A stretch of DNA of 64,000 nucleotides from Parafrankia elaeagni (GTDB lineage Bacteria > Actinomycetota > Actinomycetes > Frankiales > Frankiaceae), in assembly GCF_000374165.1 (NCBI RefSeq), contig NZ_KB893727.1, positions 1-64,000 on the forward strand, read 5' to 3'. Both the position numbers and the translations under genes were made by a program. Every line of letters begins with the position of its first letter. Position 1 is the stretch's first letter. Below are positions 2,203-14,790 of the stretch, piece after piece. Under the pieces are notes generated by a model. The model searched no databases and was not told the origin of the DNA. It was given only the letters and a program-made list of their open reading frames with translations.

Positions 2203-2454
2203 GTATAACCGCAGCTCTCGGTTCAGTGCGGTACACGACGGCTGCCATGCACACCAGCTGACGCGCAGACCTCCCGTTTCGATCGACACCTACCGCCCTG
2301 CCTCCCAGTGGGAGGTCATGTCTAGATCTAGGGTGCTTACTCCACGGTGGATCAGCAGTAGTACGCTTCTGAAGACAGGTCATCAGCGCTGGCTGTAGGG
2401 GCATCCCGGCCGCATCGCCAGCACTCGATGTCACGGACTCTGTAGGAAGTGGCG

Positions 2455-4233
2455 ATGCTGGATCGGGCTATGTCTCCCGAGAGCAAGATCTCGTCTACGC
2501 AAAATGAACAAGTGGACGCGTGGAACTTCTTTGTTTCGTACACGAGCGCCGATCGGTCCTGGGCCGAATGGATTGCTTGGGAGCTAGAGGGTAAAGGGTA
2601 TAGGGTTCTTCTTCAGGCGTGGGATTTTGTTCCTGGCTCCCACTGGATGACTCGCATGGCGCAAGGTGTCGAGCAAGCGGAGCATACCTTGGCGATCATT
2701 TCGAGGGCCTACCTAGAATCCGTCTACGGAAGGGAGGAATGGCAGGCAGCACACAGGGCCGACCCGGGGGGCTTGAAGCGGAAATTGATTCCAATTCGCG
2801 TCGAAAATTGCCAGCGTCCCGACCTCCTAGGCGGAATTGTTTCCTTCGATCTGTTCGGGTACACCGAGGAAAGGGCCCGATATCATCTCCACTCGCAGAT
2901 CCAGGATTCAATTCGCGGGCGCGCAAAACCCGCTGGATCGCCCCCATTCCCCAGCATCCCCACTGGGAATTCTGGCGGAAATGAAGTTGGACTCATAGCG
3001 CCCAATGAGCCTAGATCGGAGACTTCTCCAGAGTTTCCTGAGAGCGGTGCACCCAATTGGGCGCGGCCCACCCAAAAGCATCCTCGTAAAAGTTGGGGCC
3101 CCCGAAGAAGTATCCTAGCGGCCAGCTCTCTCCTTGCGATGATTGCGCTCGCTATCACAATTTACAGCACCGTAGATGGAGATGATAAGCCCACTATATC
3201 TGGCACACCAACGAGCACTAGCGCGCCTTCATCGCCGACTGGATCCGAGTCCATACGCCCGCTGGAACTCCATGCGCTCGGGAATGAGATGATCTCTGCC
3301 GGGCAGAACGTGAACTCTGTAGAGTACTCACCAGATGGTCGTGTGATCGCGAGCGGCAATGATTCAGGCCTCATAGAGCTTAGGTCTACATCCGACGTTC
3401 TCGATGCTAACGAGGTACGTAGCCTCAAATGCGGCAGCGAGGAAATCGGGCACGTGACCTTCTCCCCTGTGGGGGATCTCCTTGCCGCTGGAGCCCACGA
3501 CGGACTCGTCTGTACCTGGGATATTTCAGACCCGCAGCAGCCCCGTCCACGCCACCAGTTCAAGGGGAGTGGGCCAGCCGGAGTGTCGTCGCTAGATTTC
3601 GATCGCATTGGTCGAAGCCTTGCCATTGGCAGCTACGATGGTAGCTCCTGGCTTTGGGATGTGTCGGGTTTGGATGCTCGAAAATCCAATGTACTACCGT
3701 TGACGCCTCGTACCGATAAAGGTTACGGGCCGGTTGTAGAGTTCGCACCGAACAGCGATACCCTCGCAGTAGCGAGCAACGCGGACAATAATACGATCAA
3801 GCAATGGGATATTTCTGACCCCGCCAACCCGATCCCACTCGGCGTGCCGCTGGAGGAGCTTACCGACTCCGTCATATTTTTGTCTTACTCTTCAGATGGC
3901 AAAACCCTCGCCAGCACCTACGGTGGTGGAGACGGAAGAGCGTGGCTATGGGATATCTCCGATCCCGACAGTCCGCATAGGTTGAAGAACCCAGTCAAGG
4001 TTGACACTCCAATCATTGTGGCCACTTTCGGCCCCAAGGAGAATCTGTTCGCGACCGGAAGCAGCGATGGCACGATACAACTTTGGGATGTAGCTAACCT
4101 GGAAGATCCTCGAAAACTGGGATCTCAGATGCCTGGGCACAGCGATTTTGTCGCCGCAGTTGATTTCGCCCCCGAAGGAGACACTGTAGTCTCTGGAGGG
4201 GGTCGTTCTATTCGATTCTGGTCCATAAGTTAA
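2455..4233 (+). CDS. TIR domain - transmembrane - WD40 seven-blade protein
   Basis: A 592-residue protein. The ATG at 2455 is preferred over the GTG at 2449 because AGGAA ends at 2448, giving a proper 6-base spacing. Residues about 24-140 form a TIR domain: NFFVSYTSADRSWAEWIA, then AIISRAYLESVYGREEW, where the Glu pair sits at the position of the NADase Glu. A Pro/Ser linker leads to one membrane helix near residues 217-242 (SILAASSLLAMIALAITIY). The rest carries seven WD repeats ending in LWDIS or similar, enough for a closed propeller. Base composition is less GC-rich than the surroundings, suggesting transfer. Likely an anti-phage or stress sensor in which the propeller senses and TIR degrades NAD; the function is inferred. 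Confidence 0.85.
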   Translation: MLDRAMSPESKISSTQNEQVDAWNFFVSYTSADRSWAEWIAWELEGKGYRVLLQAWDFVPGSHWMTRMAQGVEQAEHTLAIISRAYLESVYGREEWQAAHRADPGGLKRKLIPIRVENCQRPDLLGGIVSFDLFGYTEERARYHLHSQIQDSIRGRAKPAGSPPFPSIPTGNSGGNEVGLIAPNEPRSETSPEFPESGAPNWARPTQKHPRKSWGPRRSILAASSLLAMIALAITIYSTVDGDDKPTISGTPTSTSAPSSPTGSESIRPLELHALGNEMISAGQNVNSVEYSPDGRVIASGNDSGLIELRSTSDVLDANEVRSLKCGSEEIGHVTFSPVGDLLAAGAHDGLVCTWDISDPQQPRPRHQFKGSGPAGVSSLDFDRIGRSLAIGSYDGSSWLWDVSGLDARKSNVLPLTPRTDKGYGPVVEFAPNSDTLAVASNADNNTIKQWDISDPANPIPLGVPLEELTDSVIFLSYSSDGKTLASTYGGGDGRAWLWDISDPDSPHRLKNPVKVDTPIIVATFGPKENLFATGSSDGTIQLWDVANLEDPRKLGSQMPGHSDFVAAVDFAPEGDTVVSGGGRSIRFWSIS

Positions 4234-6404: not shown

Positions 6405-8630
6405 ATGTCCGAGAATCCGTCCCCGGCACCGTCCGATCCGGCCGGTGCGCCGCCCCGCACCGGCGGGTGGGTGCCCGACGTCAGCCCCGAGGCGGTCAGC
6501 CTCGTCCCGTACGGGTCCGGCGACCGGCTACCCGCCACACCGGCGCAGATCGTGTACGACCTCGTGAAACCCGCACCGCGGGACGGCCGGTCCGACAGCG
6601 AGGACGTGGTCGTGACCGGTGTGCCGGTCAACCCGCCCGAACCGCCGCCGAGTCCATGGGCGCTTGCCCGGTCGGGCGCACGGCGGCCGGTCCTGCCGAC
6701 CTGGTTGCGATCGTGGGCGGCACTGCGATCGGCGGCCCGGTGGTTCGCTGGCTACTGCTTCCACACGGCCCTGTTCCATGCCATCCGGCTACCCTTCTAC
6801 GCCGCGGTGCTGGTCTGGCGTGCTCCCCGTGGCCTCGGGCGCGTGACGACCGGTACCGCCGGATGGCTGACCGATGCCGAGACTCGACCGGCCCGCGCGA
6901 CGGCGATCCGTCGGGAGGAGACGAGCGAGTACCTCAGGTTGGCGAAGCTGCGGGACGCGCGCGTCCGCGTCCGCACCATCACGGCCTTCGCCGCGGGACT
7001 GCCGTCCATCGCGGCGTTCACGATCGCGTGGACGGCGACTCCCCCGGTCGTCCATCTGGCCATCCTCGCGGTTCTGGTCGGCATCCTCGGGATGCTCGGC
7101 GCGCCGGCGGACCGGCCACTCGTCGGCCCGGCCGTCACTCCGACGAAGGTCGGTCGGCTGACCGCTGACATCGTCGTCCGCGCGCTGGAGTCCCTCGGGA
7201 TCGCTGAGATCAACAAGGCACGACGGGAAGGCGGCGGGATCACCTTCCCGGCACCCATCACCCGCGATGGGCCCGGATGGCGCGCGGACGTCGATCTCCC
7301 CTACGGGGTGACCGTGTCCGACATTCTCGACCGCCGGGAACGTCTCGCGTCCGGCCTGCGGCGTCCGATCGGGTGCGTGTGGCCCGAAGCCGTCCATGAC
7401 ACCCATGCCGGACGGCTCGTCCTGTGGGTGGGCGACGAGGACATGTCCAAGGCCAACGCCGCCGAATGGCCGTTGGCGCGGCGCGGCACCGCGGACGTGT
7501 TCGCGCCCCTGCCGTTCGGGTCCGATGCTCGCGGCCGGCCGGTCACGGTGCTCCTGCCGGAGAACAACGTCCTCGTCGGGTCGCTACCGGGCGCAGGCAA
7601 GACCTCGGCGGTGCGGGTGCTGTTGCTCGCCTGCGGGTTGGACCCGACGTCCGAAGTGTGGGTGTACAACCTCAAGGGCACCGGCGACCTGGACGCCGCC
7701 GAGAAGTTCGCCCACCGGTACGTCAGCGGCATCGACGATCCCAGCATCGAAGCCGCCCTCGTCGCGCTGCGGGACCTGCGCGCCGAGGTCGTCCGCCGGG
7801 CGGCGGCGATGAAGAACCTCCCGAAGGACCTGTGTCCGGACGGCAAGGTCACCCGCGCACTGGCCAACCGCCGCTCTCTCGGGCTGCACCTGCTCGTCGC
7901 GTTCTTCGACGAGTGCCAGAACCTGTTCACCCACCCCGTCTACGGGGAGGAAGCCGGCACCCTGGCCACCGACGTCATCAAGCTCGGACGGGCCCTCGGC
8001 GTCGTCCTCGTCCTGGCCACCCAGCGCCCGGACGCCAACAGCCTCCCGACCGGAGTGTCGTCCAGCGTCTCGGTACGGTTCTGCCTGCGGGTCATGGGCC
8101 AGGTCGAAAACGACATGATCCTCGGAACATCGATGTACAAGAACGGTGTCCGGGCCACCACGCTCCGGCCGACCGACAAGGGAATCGGCTACCTCGTCGG
8201 CGCGACGGACGACCCGCTCATCGTCCGCGCCGCTTACATTGACACGCCAACAGCAGAAAAGATAGCCGACCGGGCACGCGCCGCGCGTATCCAGGCCGGC
8301 ACGCTCGCCGGAAACGCGGCAGGGGAAGCAGCGCCGACACCGACCGACAGGACATCGACCATTCTGGACGACGTGTTGGCCGTAATTCCAGCCAGCGAAA
8401 CCAAGGTGTGGTCGGAAACGATCGTCGCCCGACTCGCCGAGCTACGCCCCGACGCATACACCGGGTGGGGCGCCGAGCAACTTACCGTCGCACTCAAGCC
8501 CTACGGGATTTCCCCCGGGCAGGTCTGGGGCACGACCACCGGCGGGAAAGGCGCCAACCGGCGCGGGATCGAGCGGCAGCAGATCGTCTCGGCGATCACG
8601 GATCGTAGCAGAATCGGGGGCGGTGGCTGA
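6405..8630 (+). CDS. FtsK/SpoIIIE-type DNA translocase (TraSA-like)
   Basis: A 741-residue ATPase. The N-terminal 190 residues are Pro-rich and partly hydrophobic; two membrane helices near residues 200-240 (FAAGLPSIAAFTIAW, VHLAILAVLVGILGML) anchor it. The motor has Walker A GSLPGAGKT at 392-400 and Walker B LLVAFFDE with the Asp-Glu at 502-503, followed by a LATQRPDANSLP motif typical of FtsK/TraB family. A winged-helix-like C-terminus follows. CGGAGG lies 10 bases before the ATG. Such proteins pump double-stranded DNA between mycelial cells and are the only transfer protein needed by AICEs such as pSAM2. It makes the block a conjugative element relic or a mobilisable one. Confidence 0.9.
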   Translation: MSENPSPAPSDPAGAPPRTGGWVPDVSPEAVSLVPYGSGDRLPATPAQIVYDLVKPAPRDGRSDSEDVVVTGVPVNPPEPPPSPWALARSGARRPVLPTWLRSWAALRSAARWFAGYCFHTALFHAIRLPFYAAVLVWRAPRGLGRVTTGTAGWLTDAETRPARATAIRREETSEYLRLAKLRDARVRVRTITAFAAGLPSIAAFTIAWTATPPVVHLAILAVLVGILGMLGAPADRPLVGPAVTPTKVGRLTADIVVRALESLGIAEINKARREGGGITFPAPITRDGPGWRADVDLPYGVTVSDILDRRERLASGLRRPIGCVWPEAVHDTHAGRLVLWVGDEDMSKANAAEWPLARRGTADVFAPLPFGSDARGRPVTVLLPENNVLVGSLPGAGKTSAVRVLLLACGLDPTSEVWVYNLKGTGDLDAAEKFAHRYVSGIDDPSIEAALVALRDLRAEVVRRAAAMKNLPKDLCPDGKVTRALANRRSLGLHLLVAFFDECQNLFTHPVYGEEAGTLATDVIKLGRALGVVLVLATQRPDANSLPTGVSSSVSVRFCLRVMGQVENDMILGTSMYKNGVRATTLRPTDKGIGYLVGATDDPLIVRAAYIDTPTAEKIADRARAARIQAGTLAGNAAGEAAPTPTDRTSTILDDVLAVIPASETKVWSETIVARLAELRPDAYTGWGAEQLTVALKPYGISPGQVWGTTTGGKGANRRGIERQQIVSAITDRSRIGGGG

Positions 8631-10461: not shown

Positions 10462-12735
10462 ATGGCCTTCCACCCAGAGGATAAACTGATCTACATGCAG
10501 GAATCCGTCCCACAATTCGAAACCGATGACCATTGGAGACTTCTAGCAAAACTAATCGATCTTTTTTTTAAGCGCATCACAAAAGATGTTCCAACAGTTT
10601 GGATACCAAACACTGAACATTCAGACCCGGCGAAGCTAGCGTCTAGCTTACTGCACGGACTTCAGTCGTCTCACATCTTCAACAGGCCGACCAACCTCTT
10701 CCTCGGTTCAGATCTGCAGGATATTCCAATTGATGGGGCCACCTTTTTTGTCCCCTCGTGGAAGATGCGCCGAGACATGAGACCGGAACCATACGAACTT
10801 GAAATAATGAGGTGTCGCCCGACCGGGCAGGACTCACTGCTCGGCACGATAATACCCTCAACCACCCTGACCTCCCGCTCCGCGCTGAAAGTGCGAGAGA
10901 CTCTGGCGGCATCGTGGAAACCAGTCCTGGTAATTCACTCGACAGTCACCCTACCCGGATTGGGCTTAGTTTTTCATGTCACCATTCCATTTTTCGCCGA
11001 TCGAAACACGAGCATTGATCAACTTTACATGTTCAGAGTTCCTCCAGAAGCAGAGAGCGCTGCCGTCCTCCGAGAGTTCAACAGAATAATTGAGGGCAAG
11101 TCACAGAGTTCCAGGTACGGCTACACCTCAATCCTGAAGACTTACGATGGAGAGGCCTTGACGTTTGGCCGACACGATCCTGAGGTATTAAATCTCAAAC
11201 GAGAGGTCGCGAATCTCGGACCTAACATCGATATTGGAGAGATGTTCAGTCGGGGACCGAATCTGGTACGTTCGAAAGACGCGACGTGGCGCGAAGAGGA
11301 AATATACTCGGAGGGCCCAAGGATAATTACCGGACACGATATCGCTCGATATGGAGCGATCGGCCTTCCTGAGACTCAGAGGAAATCCTCAGAGGTAGCG
11401 TCCGAGCACCAACTTAAAGTTGGAGATCTACTTCTTCCCAGAATTTTTTCCTCCCGCAGGAAGAGTCTTGCAGTCGTTGAAGTAACGGAAGACCTTCTGC
11501 CTGCAGTGGCCCTTCAGTCAGTGCTGGTTCTGCGACCGAACCCGGAGTTCGATGAGCGGGATCACATATTTGTGAAGTACTACCTTCGATCGTCGATTGC
11601 CTATGAGATCATAAAATCGACCGCGAATGTATCACCAACGGGATCCGATGTTCGCCTGGATTGGAGTGAACTCCGGAAAGTTCTCTTGCCTCGCCCTGAC
11701 GAGGCTTTGAAAGCCGCGCTCATGGAGCTCGATGACGCCGCTCGGCAGTTCGACGAGTGGAGGTCGCAGGCAGAGACAGTTCTTCAATCTTCATTTTCCG
11801 AGACTAGCAGTAAGGATATTAGACGACTGATAGTGGGTCAGGGACGTGAACTCCGACTTAGAAGCCAGGCGGCATCTCTCATCGGAGACTCGGCGTATAC
11901 GATCCGGACGAGATATCCTTATCCAATTGCATACCGTTGGCGGCGAGTCGAGGCAGCCACAAGCGCTGGCGACTACCGCGGCGCCTACGAAGAGATCCTC
12001 GATAGCGCCGAGATTTTGCTTTGCTACCTAGCGCAAAGCGTGCTGGCGCTGGCGCAGAATAGCCAACTTGAGTTGGGTTTCAAGCAAAATCTGCGAAATC
12101 GACTGGCGAATGGCCGGGGTGGTCTAACTCTTGGCGACTGGATCGCGATTCTGGCAGAGGTCCGTGACGGAAAAATATTTCGGAGGCTGCCCGACGAGCA
12201 TCCTTTGAGCGATTTTCGCGCCACATTGACTGACGCCGCTTTTGAGAGGGCTAGAGACCGCCTCTACAAACGAAGAAATGATCGCGCTCACTTGCGCGGC
12301 GTTGACGGGCCAGAGCTTCCCGATGCAGTCACAGAAATACTTGACGACCTCACGCAACTAATGACAGGTGCGAAATTTCTGACAGACCTGAAGCTTGTGC
12401 ATGTGACCGGTGTCCACTGGGACAGCATGCGAAGCCAAGGAAGCATAACTCATCGCGAACTAATGGGAGATCATCCCGTTGTTCCGACGAAGATTTTGCA
12501 ACACGATAAATCCGATATTGAGGTGGGCAGTCTATACCTGCAAGACAGGCAGGGTGGATTCTATCTACTGAGGCCATATCTGACCGGACGCCATTGCCCC
12601 AAGTGCCACCTATGGTCCACTTTTCATATTGATAGCGCAACATCTAAAATCATCACACTGAAGAGCCTTGAACATAGCCACACCCTAGTTGACCCATCAA
12701 TTAATGCCGCACTCGAATATGTTGGAATCTTGTAG
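10462..12735 (+). CDS. orphan TRD-HEPN-zinc protein, probable defence nuclease
   Basis: A 757-residue protein of distinctly lower GC than its neighbours, suggesting recent transfer. Residues about 1-270 form an alpha/beta region of unknown type. Residues about 280-455 resemble a target-recognition half of a type I restriction S subunit: IITGHDIARYG, LKVGDLLLPRI, VALQSVLVLRPN, then KVLLPRP and a long helix. Residues about 480-640 are helical and hold RNDRAH at 605-610, matching the HEPN RNase R-x4-H motif. The C-terminus has HCPKCH at 711-716, a likely zinc site. No methylase or helicase partner is adjacent. Function as an antiviral nuclease is inferred. No clear ribosome site precedes the ATG. 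Confidence 0.7.
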   Translation: MAFHPEDKLIYMQESVPQFETDDHWRLLAKLIDLFFKRITKDVPTVWIPNTEHSDPAKLASSLLHGLQSSHIFNRPTNLFLGSDLQDIPIDGATFFVPSWKMRRDMRPEPYELEIMRCRPTGQDSLLGTIIPSTTLTSRSALKVRETLAASWKPVLVIHSTVTLPGLGLVFHVTIPFFADRNTSIDQLYMFRVPPEAESAAVLREFNRIIEGKSQSSRYGYTSILKTYDGEALTFGRHDPEVLNLKREVANLGPNIDIGEMFSRGPNLVRSKDATWREEEIYSEGPRIITGHDIARYGAIGLPETQRKSSEVASEHQLKVGDLLLPRIFSSRRKSLAVVEVTEDLLPAVALQSVLVLRPNPEFDERDHIFVKYYLRSSIAYEIIKSTANVSPTGSDVRLDWSELRKVLLPRPDEALKAALMELDDAARQFDEWRSQAETVLQSSFSETSSKDIRRLIVGQGRELRLRSQAASLIGDSAYTIRTRYPYPIAYRWRRVEAATSAGDYRGAYEEILDSAEILLCYLAQSVLALAQNSQLELGFKQNLRNRLANGRGGLTLGDWIAILAEVRDGKIFRRLPDEHPLSDFRATLTDAAFERARDRLYKRRNDRAHLRGVDGPELPDAVTEILDDLTQLMTGAKFLTDLKLVHVTGVHWDSMRSQGSITHRELMGDHPVVPTKILQHDKSDIEVGSLYLQDRQGGFYLLRPYLTGRHCPKCHLWSTFHIDSATSKIITLKSLEHSHTLVDPSINAALEYVGIL

Positions 12736-13174: not shown

Positions 13175-13251
13175 TGGTGGGGCGGGTGGGGCTCGAACCC
13201 ACGACCGACGGATTATGAGTCCGCTGCTCTGACCGGCTGAGCTACCGCCCC
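13175..13251 (-). tRNA. tRNA with CAT anticodon (probably elongator Met)
   Basis: A 77-base cloverleaf on the minus strand. The acceptor stem GGGGCGG pairs with CCGCCCC, followed by A73 and an encoded CCA. The D arm is GCTCAGCCGGTCAGAGC, the anticodon loop is CTCATAA in a GGA/TCC-type stem, and the T arm is GTGGG-TTCGAGC-CCCAC. CAT can read as elongator Met or, if lysidinylated, Ile2. Its 3' end faces the accessory region, as expected for an integration site. Confidence 0.92.
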
Positions 13252-14117: not shown

Positions 14118-14790
14118 ATGGCCACCCTTCGGTCGACGACGGACACAGTGTCTCCTACCCGTGACCAGGGCCTTTCATGGCAGGGTCTCCCCTTGACGGG
14201 CCATGATGGGGGTCCGCGTTCCTCTGAAACTCGCAGAAACGCACGAAAACTCACAGGAAGGCAGAACCTGCGCCCGCCTTTTGCTCGGGTACGGGTGACA
14301 TGGCCGGATTCTGCTTATCGGTCATGCCACATGCCGTCGAGATACATGCCCCTCGAGAATCGCGGCGGTTTTCGCGGTGTCCGAATGATACGCCCGCGTG
14401 GCAGGAACGATACGCCCGCGTGGCAGGTCGGTGGTTCACGGGCTGGATTACGGACTGGGCCCCGGACCGGGCCACGAACTGGGTTCACAGCCGACGAAGG
14501 CGGCCGGGGGTGGCGGCTGTCGAGTTCGACGATCATGCGGTGCTGGTGTCCGGGGTGACTGGCGAGCGTCCACGACCGCCACCACGTCAGGGCGGGCAGT
14601 CGTCGCCCCGTCTCGCCCTCGCGCTACGCCGGGGTCCGGACGCCGCGCGACGGGCACCGCGGGCTCGTCCACGCCCGCCGGAGAGATCACCGAAAAAAGT
14701 TCGGGCGGGGATGTCGAGATGCCGTGGCTGGTTCCGTCCCCGGGGTGGACGCGGCCACAATGGGCCGCACCAGCACCGAGGAGAACCGTC
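14118..14790. other. gene-free stretch with short repeats
   Basis: No supportable gene in 673 bases. It holds a 19-bp direct repeat (separate entry), GC-rich near-repeats of GGACTGGGCC around 14450-14480, and the promoter of the YCII gene at 14791. Confidence 0.5.
14387..14427. repeat. 19-bp direct repeat, two copies
   Basis: GATACGCCCGCGTGGCAGG occurs at 14387-14405 and 14409-14427, with a 22-base period. Two helical turns apart, these could be tandem protein-binding sites upstream of the YCII/sigma pair. Confidence 0.6.

Follow-up and report, generated by a model that had tools for sequence, protein, structure and literature searches.

A candidate orphan defence effector in Parafrankia elaeagni, predicted to join a dead adenine methyltransferase, a target recognition domain and a HEPN-zinc module

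Within the first 64,000 nucleotides of contig NZ_KB893727.1 of Parafrankia elaeagni (RefSeq assembly GCF_000374165.1; this whole stretch is called the window below), a single gene encodes a 757-residue protein predicted to combine an N6-adenine methyltransferase fold devoid of recognisable S-adenosylmethionine (SAM) or catalytic motifs with a target recognition domain (TRD), a helical spacer, a HEPN-like domain and a C-terminal beta/zinc domain (Table 1). The domain order and predicted folds, the invariance of the HEPN motif, the absence of methylase motifs, a sporadic distribution and defence-rich neighbourhoods are supported by our calculations. We give an even chance to the reading that the gene specifies an orphan defence effector, carried by a mobile element and descended from a restriction-modification (RM) enzyme, in which the dead methylase and the TRD would control a HEPN-zinc RNase. 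An earlier note on this DNA had proposed a TRD, a HEPN-like domain and a zinc motif in an orphan protein, all of which are upheld by conservation, predicted structure and genomic context; it had missed the dead methylase in the N-terminal half.

Results

A predicted dead methyltransferase fold precedes the recognition domain

The reading frame is open throughout its 757 codons, confirming the single intact protein noted earlier, and its G+C content (GC) is, as also noted, lower than that of its surroundings (0.516, against 0.706 for the remaining window). At 27 of 29 homologous loci, too, the gene has a lower GC than the flanking DNA, mostly by a small margin (means 0.641 vs 0.668). A pseudogene or decayed remnant was ruled out, the frame being open and the key residues invariant across actinobacterial families and a Hydrogenedentota metagenome-assembled genome (MAG). 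Scans of the single protein against Pfam, NCBIfam and PADLOC were nearly empty, returning a weak Zn_ribbon_LapB match and weak Specificity_I matches lying within residues 277-444. No system protein catalogued in PADLOC v2.0.0 was matched in full, the matches being partial ones to Specificity_I and, among family members, a few weak others (MTase_II, Cas6d), and phmmer of the single protein against the PDB found only two matches, both at E about 0.9.

Structure search showed that the fold of residues 24-450 matches type I HsdM/HsdS and M.TaqI/CamA-type methylases, and the predicted structure has the Rossmann methylase fold and TRD arrangement of N6-adenine methyltransferases; sequence-level comparison yielded no support for a methylase fold. 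The signatures of an active enzyme were missing from the 23 N-terminal halves that could be aligned (L049, with an incomplete N-terminus, and six short forms were left out): motif IV ([NDS]PP[YFW]) occurred in 0/23, even with L accepted as its last letter, and a motif I pattern in one, judged a chance match, while the same scan was positive for five of five real methylases. At the proposed motif IV remnant, V97-P98-S99-W100, the first position is hydrophobic or Cys across all 23. On the strength of the model, residues about 24-250 are thus a predicted dead N6-adenine methyltransferase domain, which makes the protein a candidate RM-derived fusion and not a bare TRD-HEPN protein; the idea of a bare TRD with an N-terminal half of another kind was dropped once the fold search had shown the methylase-type fold.

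The S-subunit-like recognition half of the earlier note could be placed at about residues 251-450 from the predicted structure and from profile matches. The TRD matches the profile of Esub1 (PDB 8vsr/8vsq) at E 2.6e-6 and the PADLOC Specificity_I model, weakly for the window protein (E 0.017) and at best with E 1.8e-7 among 30 family members, so that both fold and profile similarity assign it to the type I S-subunit-like TRDs.

Table 1 Features of the fusion gene and its surroundings in the window
Feature	Residues	Position	Strand	Basis or remark
Whole gene, 757 amino acids (aa): pseudo-methyltransferase, TRD, helical spacer, HEPN-like and beta/zinc domains		10462..12735	+	Open reading frame (ORF), alignment, GC
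Predicted N6-adenine methyltransferase (Rossmann) fold, no recognisable SAM/catalytic motifs	21-250	10522..11211	+	
V97-P98-S99-W100, proposed motif IV ([NDS]PP[YFW]) remnant	97-100	10750..10761	+	Equivalence to motif IV inferred
Type I S-subunit/M.TaqI-like TRD	251-412	11212..11697	+	
Spacer of two long helices	413-480	11698..11901	+	AlphaFold2 (AF2) helices 414-443, 450-474
HEPN-like helical domain	481-642	11902..12387	+	
R605-N606-D-R-A-H610, predicted HEPN R-N-x3-H RNase motif, end of helix 592-609	605-610	12274..12291	+	
Beta-rich domain with GDH (669-671), C712, C715, H738, H740; probable zinc site	643-757	12388..12732	+	Conservation, model
FtsK/TraB-like transfer ATPase		6405..8630	+	TIGR03924 E 2.6e-10, NF041214 plasmid_TraB E 4.3e-9, Pfam FtsK_SpoIIIE E 1.1e-4; all below curated cut-off
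tRNA-Met gene		13175..13251	-	ARAGORN

An invariant HEPN motif and a probable zinc site

The HEPN superfamily is characterised by an Rx4-6H motif in which a polar residue (N, D or H) follows the arginine (PMC3710099). The RNDRAH stretch to which the earlier note had drawn attention has this form (R605-N606-x3-H610), and its R605, N606 and H610 are invariant in all 30 aligned sequences, an alignment from which four of 33 loci were dropped (L063, masked; L064, interrupted; L065 and L066, fragments). In a wider set of 15 rows, N and H are again present throughout, and the R position holds R in 11 rows and K in the other 4. The AF2 model contains the HEPN-like helical bundle that the note had asked of a structure prediction, with helix 592-609, a loop and helix 616-636, and with an invariant E517 inside helix 505-533; the acidic motif does not have its typical 'Ex3[KR]' form, position 521 being C. 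Profile-level likeness to HEPN families was found neither by hmmscan and hmmsearch nor by hhalign against small sets of our own making, some of which contained faulty members; these included a DUF4145 set of eight and a PF05168 set that may contain wrong-strand members (L120 looks so). In the reading favoured here, the domain would most likely be a metal-independent RNase.

Of the C-terminal 'HCPKCH' cluster noted earlier, the CxxC pair stands, C712 and C715 being invariant in 30/30, and is joined by the later H738 and H740, which are nearly invariant (90% or more); H711, P713 and H716 vary. Pfam Zn_ribbon_LapB matches 11 of the 30 members weakly (best E 0.051), and the modelled beta domain probably carries a zinc site. 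Mean pairwise identity is 0.36 for the TRD, 0.52 for the HEPN-like domain and 0.55 for the zinc domain (30 rows each), and 0.33 for the pseudo-methylase (23 rows), a contrast that would fit a changing reader coupled to a constant effector.

The HEPN-zinc module occurs on several architectures

Protein searches found matches in 8/396 genomes of a phylum sample, 7/394 of a class sample and 3/36 of the family, each count taking in the window's own genome, and in none of the six other genomes of the genus; searching with a C-terminal module profile brought the figure for the phylum sample to 13/396. Plasmid records held eight homologues, all from Streptomyces or [Kitasatospora] papulosa, six of them annotated 'restriction endonuclease'. 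In a collection of genome contigs, where a scan with the single protein gave zero matches, a scan for the conserved motifs recovered 33 loci, actinobacterial by title save for one Hydrogenedentota and one Bacillota-labelled MAG. A phage-borne origin was considered and rejected: tblastn against 50,697 phage records gave no match at E 0.01, two pattern scans of IMG/VR were empty, and the C-terminal model matched no BFVD fold at an E below 0.001.

The module also sits on intact methylases. HsdM_N plus N6_Mtase precede it in L012 (E 1.3e-41) and L032 (E 2.4e-49), and in L090 the methylase part bears DPACGTG and NPPY; these appear to be live N6-methylase-TRD-HEPN-zinc fusions (L012 8303-11191, L032 9493-12735, L090 5134-8511). 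In L033 it is attached to a protein without recognisable methylase motifs, in L016 and L017 to proteins whose N-termini, judged by eye, seem membrane-bound, and in L015 (4935-8904) it terminates a type III-like Res helicase (ResIII E 3.6e-10), adjoined upstream by ORFs that resemble, by eye, a split type III Mod methylase. The Res-helicase forms (L015, L018, L019, L020 and L091; about 1300 aa in the first three) carry K where the others have the HEPN arginine. A tree of 45 modules gathers the ten TRD-only forms into one clade (support 100/100) within a larger supported group that includes two full-length forms, which fits a single loss of the pseudo-methylase, though the tree's root is unfixed and the tool gave a long-branch warning.

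In L031/L064 (G682:C62) the homologous gene is fragmented. About 2.7 kb separate its last two fragments, and between them, on the opposite strand, lies an ORF akin to one that carries an IstB annotation in L013; an insertion sequence has probably disrupted this copy.

Homologues lie in variable, defence-rich surroundings

We compared the neighbours of the homologues with PADLOC. The 98 neighbour proteins used, from 26 homologous loci, matched 96 families at E 1e-10 or better, against eight for 96 control proteins, numbers that count families and not genes, since a single protein may match many related models. JetA, JetC, type I RM, type IIG, Cas1, SspD, DruE, LmuB and PprPIWI were among the 25 of the 96 families that were listed. 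The test covered 29 loci, of which L039 and L053 yielded no proteins, and 98 of 100 chosen proteins (two small ORFs of L059 were omitted), with proteins longer than 1000 aa cut to 1000; the controls were 96 of the 111 genes in 20 regions picked arbitrarily from 11 genomes. Neighbour genes were predicted with a home-made codon score favouring high GC, which missed both the fusion gene and a TIR-WD40 gene in the window, so that low-GC neighbours are undercounted. By the earlier note, homologues kept beside a housekeeping partner would have told against its reading; the homologues occupy variable, defence-rich surroundings instead.

A conserved partner gene was also rejected, since no neighbour family recurred in most of the 48 sources when their 957 candidate ORFs were clustered. 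Apart from the family itself and antisense frames, the largest clusters were an IS5-type transposase (9/48 sources, one member so annotated), followed at five sources each by a protein of about 1050 aa, a VWA-type protein and a second transposase frame. The ~1050-aa protein (L037 10299-13457, L046 10186-13458, L009 15847-18939, and L043 and L063) is encoded directly downstream in L037 and L046, and its L037 copy has no Pfam match. A giant neighbour of about 1800 aa also recurs (L037 2464-7896, L043 11936-17230, L047 2263-7554), with an AAA/NACHT-type ATPase domain in the L037 copy.

The gene lies at the edge of a candidate mobile element

In the window, the fusion gene sits between the FtsK/TraB-like gene and the tRNA-Met gene. 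The 3' part of this tRNA (13176-13224) recurs twice on another contig at 96% identity (L070, G000:C75:36000-50152, at about 6063 and 11703), and a third, weaker match (78%) lies elsewhere; the second copy has a tyrosine integrase gene some 190 bases away (L070 11935-13077, Phage_integrase E 2.6e-14). From the sequence, the tRNA 3' part is the probable attachment site of a mobile element carrying the fusion gene, the two L070 copies probably mark attachment sites of this element or of a relative of it, and the FtsK/TraB-like gene is likely a sign of an actinomycete integrative conjugative element with the fusion gene as edge cargo.

The orphan state claimed earlier is supported, with no methylase, helicase or nuclease among the eight neighbouring window ORFs scanned with Pfam, the remaining window lying outside that scan, and with all six N6_Mtase and three Methylase_S matches of the genome on contigs other than the window's. 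HsdM, HsdS and HsdR, which together would make a type I RM system, were therefore not found, the contig having neither N6_Mtase nor Methylase_S and the eight ORFs none of the three, with HsdR not searched for genome-wide.

About 6 kb upstream of the fusion gene, a gene on the same strand (2449-4233) encodes a TIR domain (TIR_2 E 7.2e-37) with WD40 repeats, a possible second immune effector. At 14383-14426, a 22-base unit occurs in two head-to-tail copies that are 95% alike.

Discussion

We infer DNA binding, RNase activity, their coupling, a trigger and a role in defence along the following lines. The methyltransferase fold, its SAM and catalytic motifs lost, would together with the type I S-like TRD form a module that reads DNA and does not methylate it; the HEPN domain with its zinc/beta partner would be an effector, inactive until the reading module binds a ligand, which may be a DNA site, foreign or modified, or possibly a DNA mimic of the anti-restriction kind; and RNA cleavage by the effector would then arrest the infected cell. 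In its most specific form, a one-gene immune sensor in which the retired methyltransferase and TRD recognise foreign DNA at a specific or modified site and activate the fused HEPN RNase with no separate partner, within a wider family that places the HEPN-zinc module on live methylases, dead methylases, bare TRDs and type III-like Res helicases, this explanation is held tentatively, as a possibility short of an even chance.

The ligand may instead be a protein. The dead methylase and TRD could be bait for anti-restriction DNA mimics of the Ocr or ArdA type, so that binding of the inhibitor, not of DNA, frees the HEPN toxin. The fold is that of the enzymes such inhibitors bind, chains from Ocr and ArdA complexes are among the structure matches, no cognate modification gene was found adjoining, and PrrC, as described in PMC3710099, offers a precedent as a HEPN toxin tied to restriction and freed when its restriction partner is hit. 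The clade with TRD-HEPN-zinc alone, however, implies that the pseudo-methylase is dispensable; we regard this explanation as rather unlikely. Unlikely too, and slightly more so, is a regulator or specificity factor whose HEPN domain merely binds or dimerises and whose S-like half works with methylase or nuclease subunits supplied by genes elsewhere: the half-S-subunit anatomy, the N6_Mtase and Methylase_S matches on the genome's other contigs and the R-to-K change in 4/15 rows speak for it, whereas the family has a methylase-like domain of its own and keeps R605, N606 and H610 in 30/30.

A type IV-like restriction protein that cuts DNA, its HEPN-zinc part aiding cleavage or the recognition of modified bases while RNA is left uncut, would agree with the type I/IIG-like fold of the reading module and with the annotation of the plasmid homologues, yet Pfam at E up to 1 detects a nuclease domain in 0/30 (the protein and its 29 aligned relatives), and we consider it improbable. 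The position between the FtsK/TraB-like gene and the tRNA attachment site would also suit a gene that serves the conjugative element itself, in entry exclusion, maintenance or as a toxin, and not phage defence; the neighbours of the homologues, however, match Jet, Cas1, type I RM, DruE and SspD models, so that the context is not tied to one element, and this explanation seems very improbable.

Among known systems, DndH of DndFGH restriction, as described in PMC10853773, resembles the fusion protein in joining an inactive adenine methyltransferase, with eroded SAM loop and [SDN]PP[FYW] motif, and TRDs to an effector; there the effector is a nuclease domain, whereas the orphan gene described here has HEPN-like and zinc domains. 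PrrC and RloC, in the account of PMC3710099, share a HEPN RNase tied to restriction machinery as a second line acting on self RNA, but use ABC ATPases. Type I HsdM/HsdS and M.TaqI/CamA-type methylases have the fold of residues 24-450, from which the fusion protein departs in its absent motif IV, unrecognisable motif I, single TRD and extra HEPN-zinc C-terminus, and no HsdR was found adjoining it. CoCoNuTs (PMC11090510) are likewise restriction-type systems predicted to target RNA, but by description are set apart as a branch of the McrBC (type IV) systems. Section 10 of PMC3710099, dating from 2013, states that restriction-linked HEPN domains are fused to restriction nucleases, helicases and other ATPases 'but not to the methylases', while its Table 1 records occasional fusions between the HEPN-M (DUF86) family and nucleic acid methylase domains; the HEPN-like module here differs from HEPN-M as listed there and occurs on both live and dead methylase-TRD units. 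We found no description of a HEPN-methylase-TRD fusion of this kind in the open-licence literature, a search that could miss subscription papers.

If the proposed reading holds, sequence-specific DNA recognition would be coupled to RNA cleavage within one polypeptide. It would also run counter to the view in that section 10 that HEPN domains avoid methylases, the occasional fusions of another HEPN family in Table 1 notwithstanding, and would provide a small orphan system in which to ask what role an enzymatically dead methylase plays in immunity.
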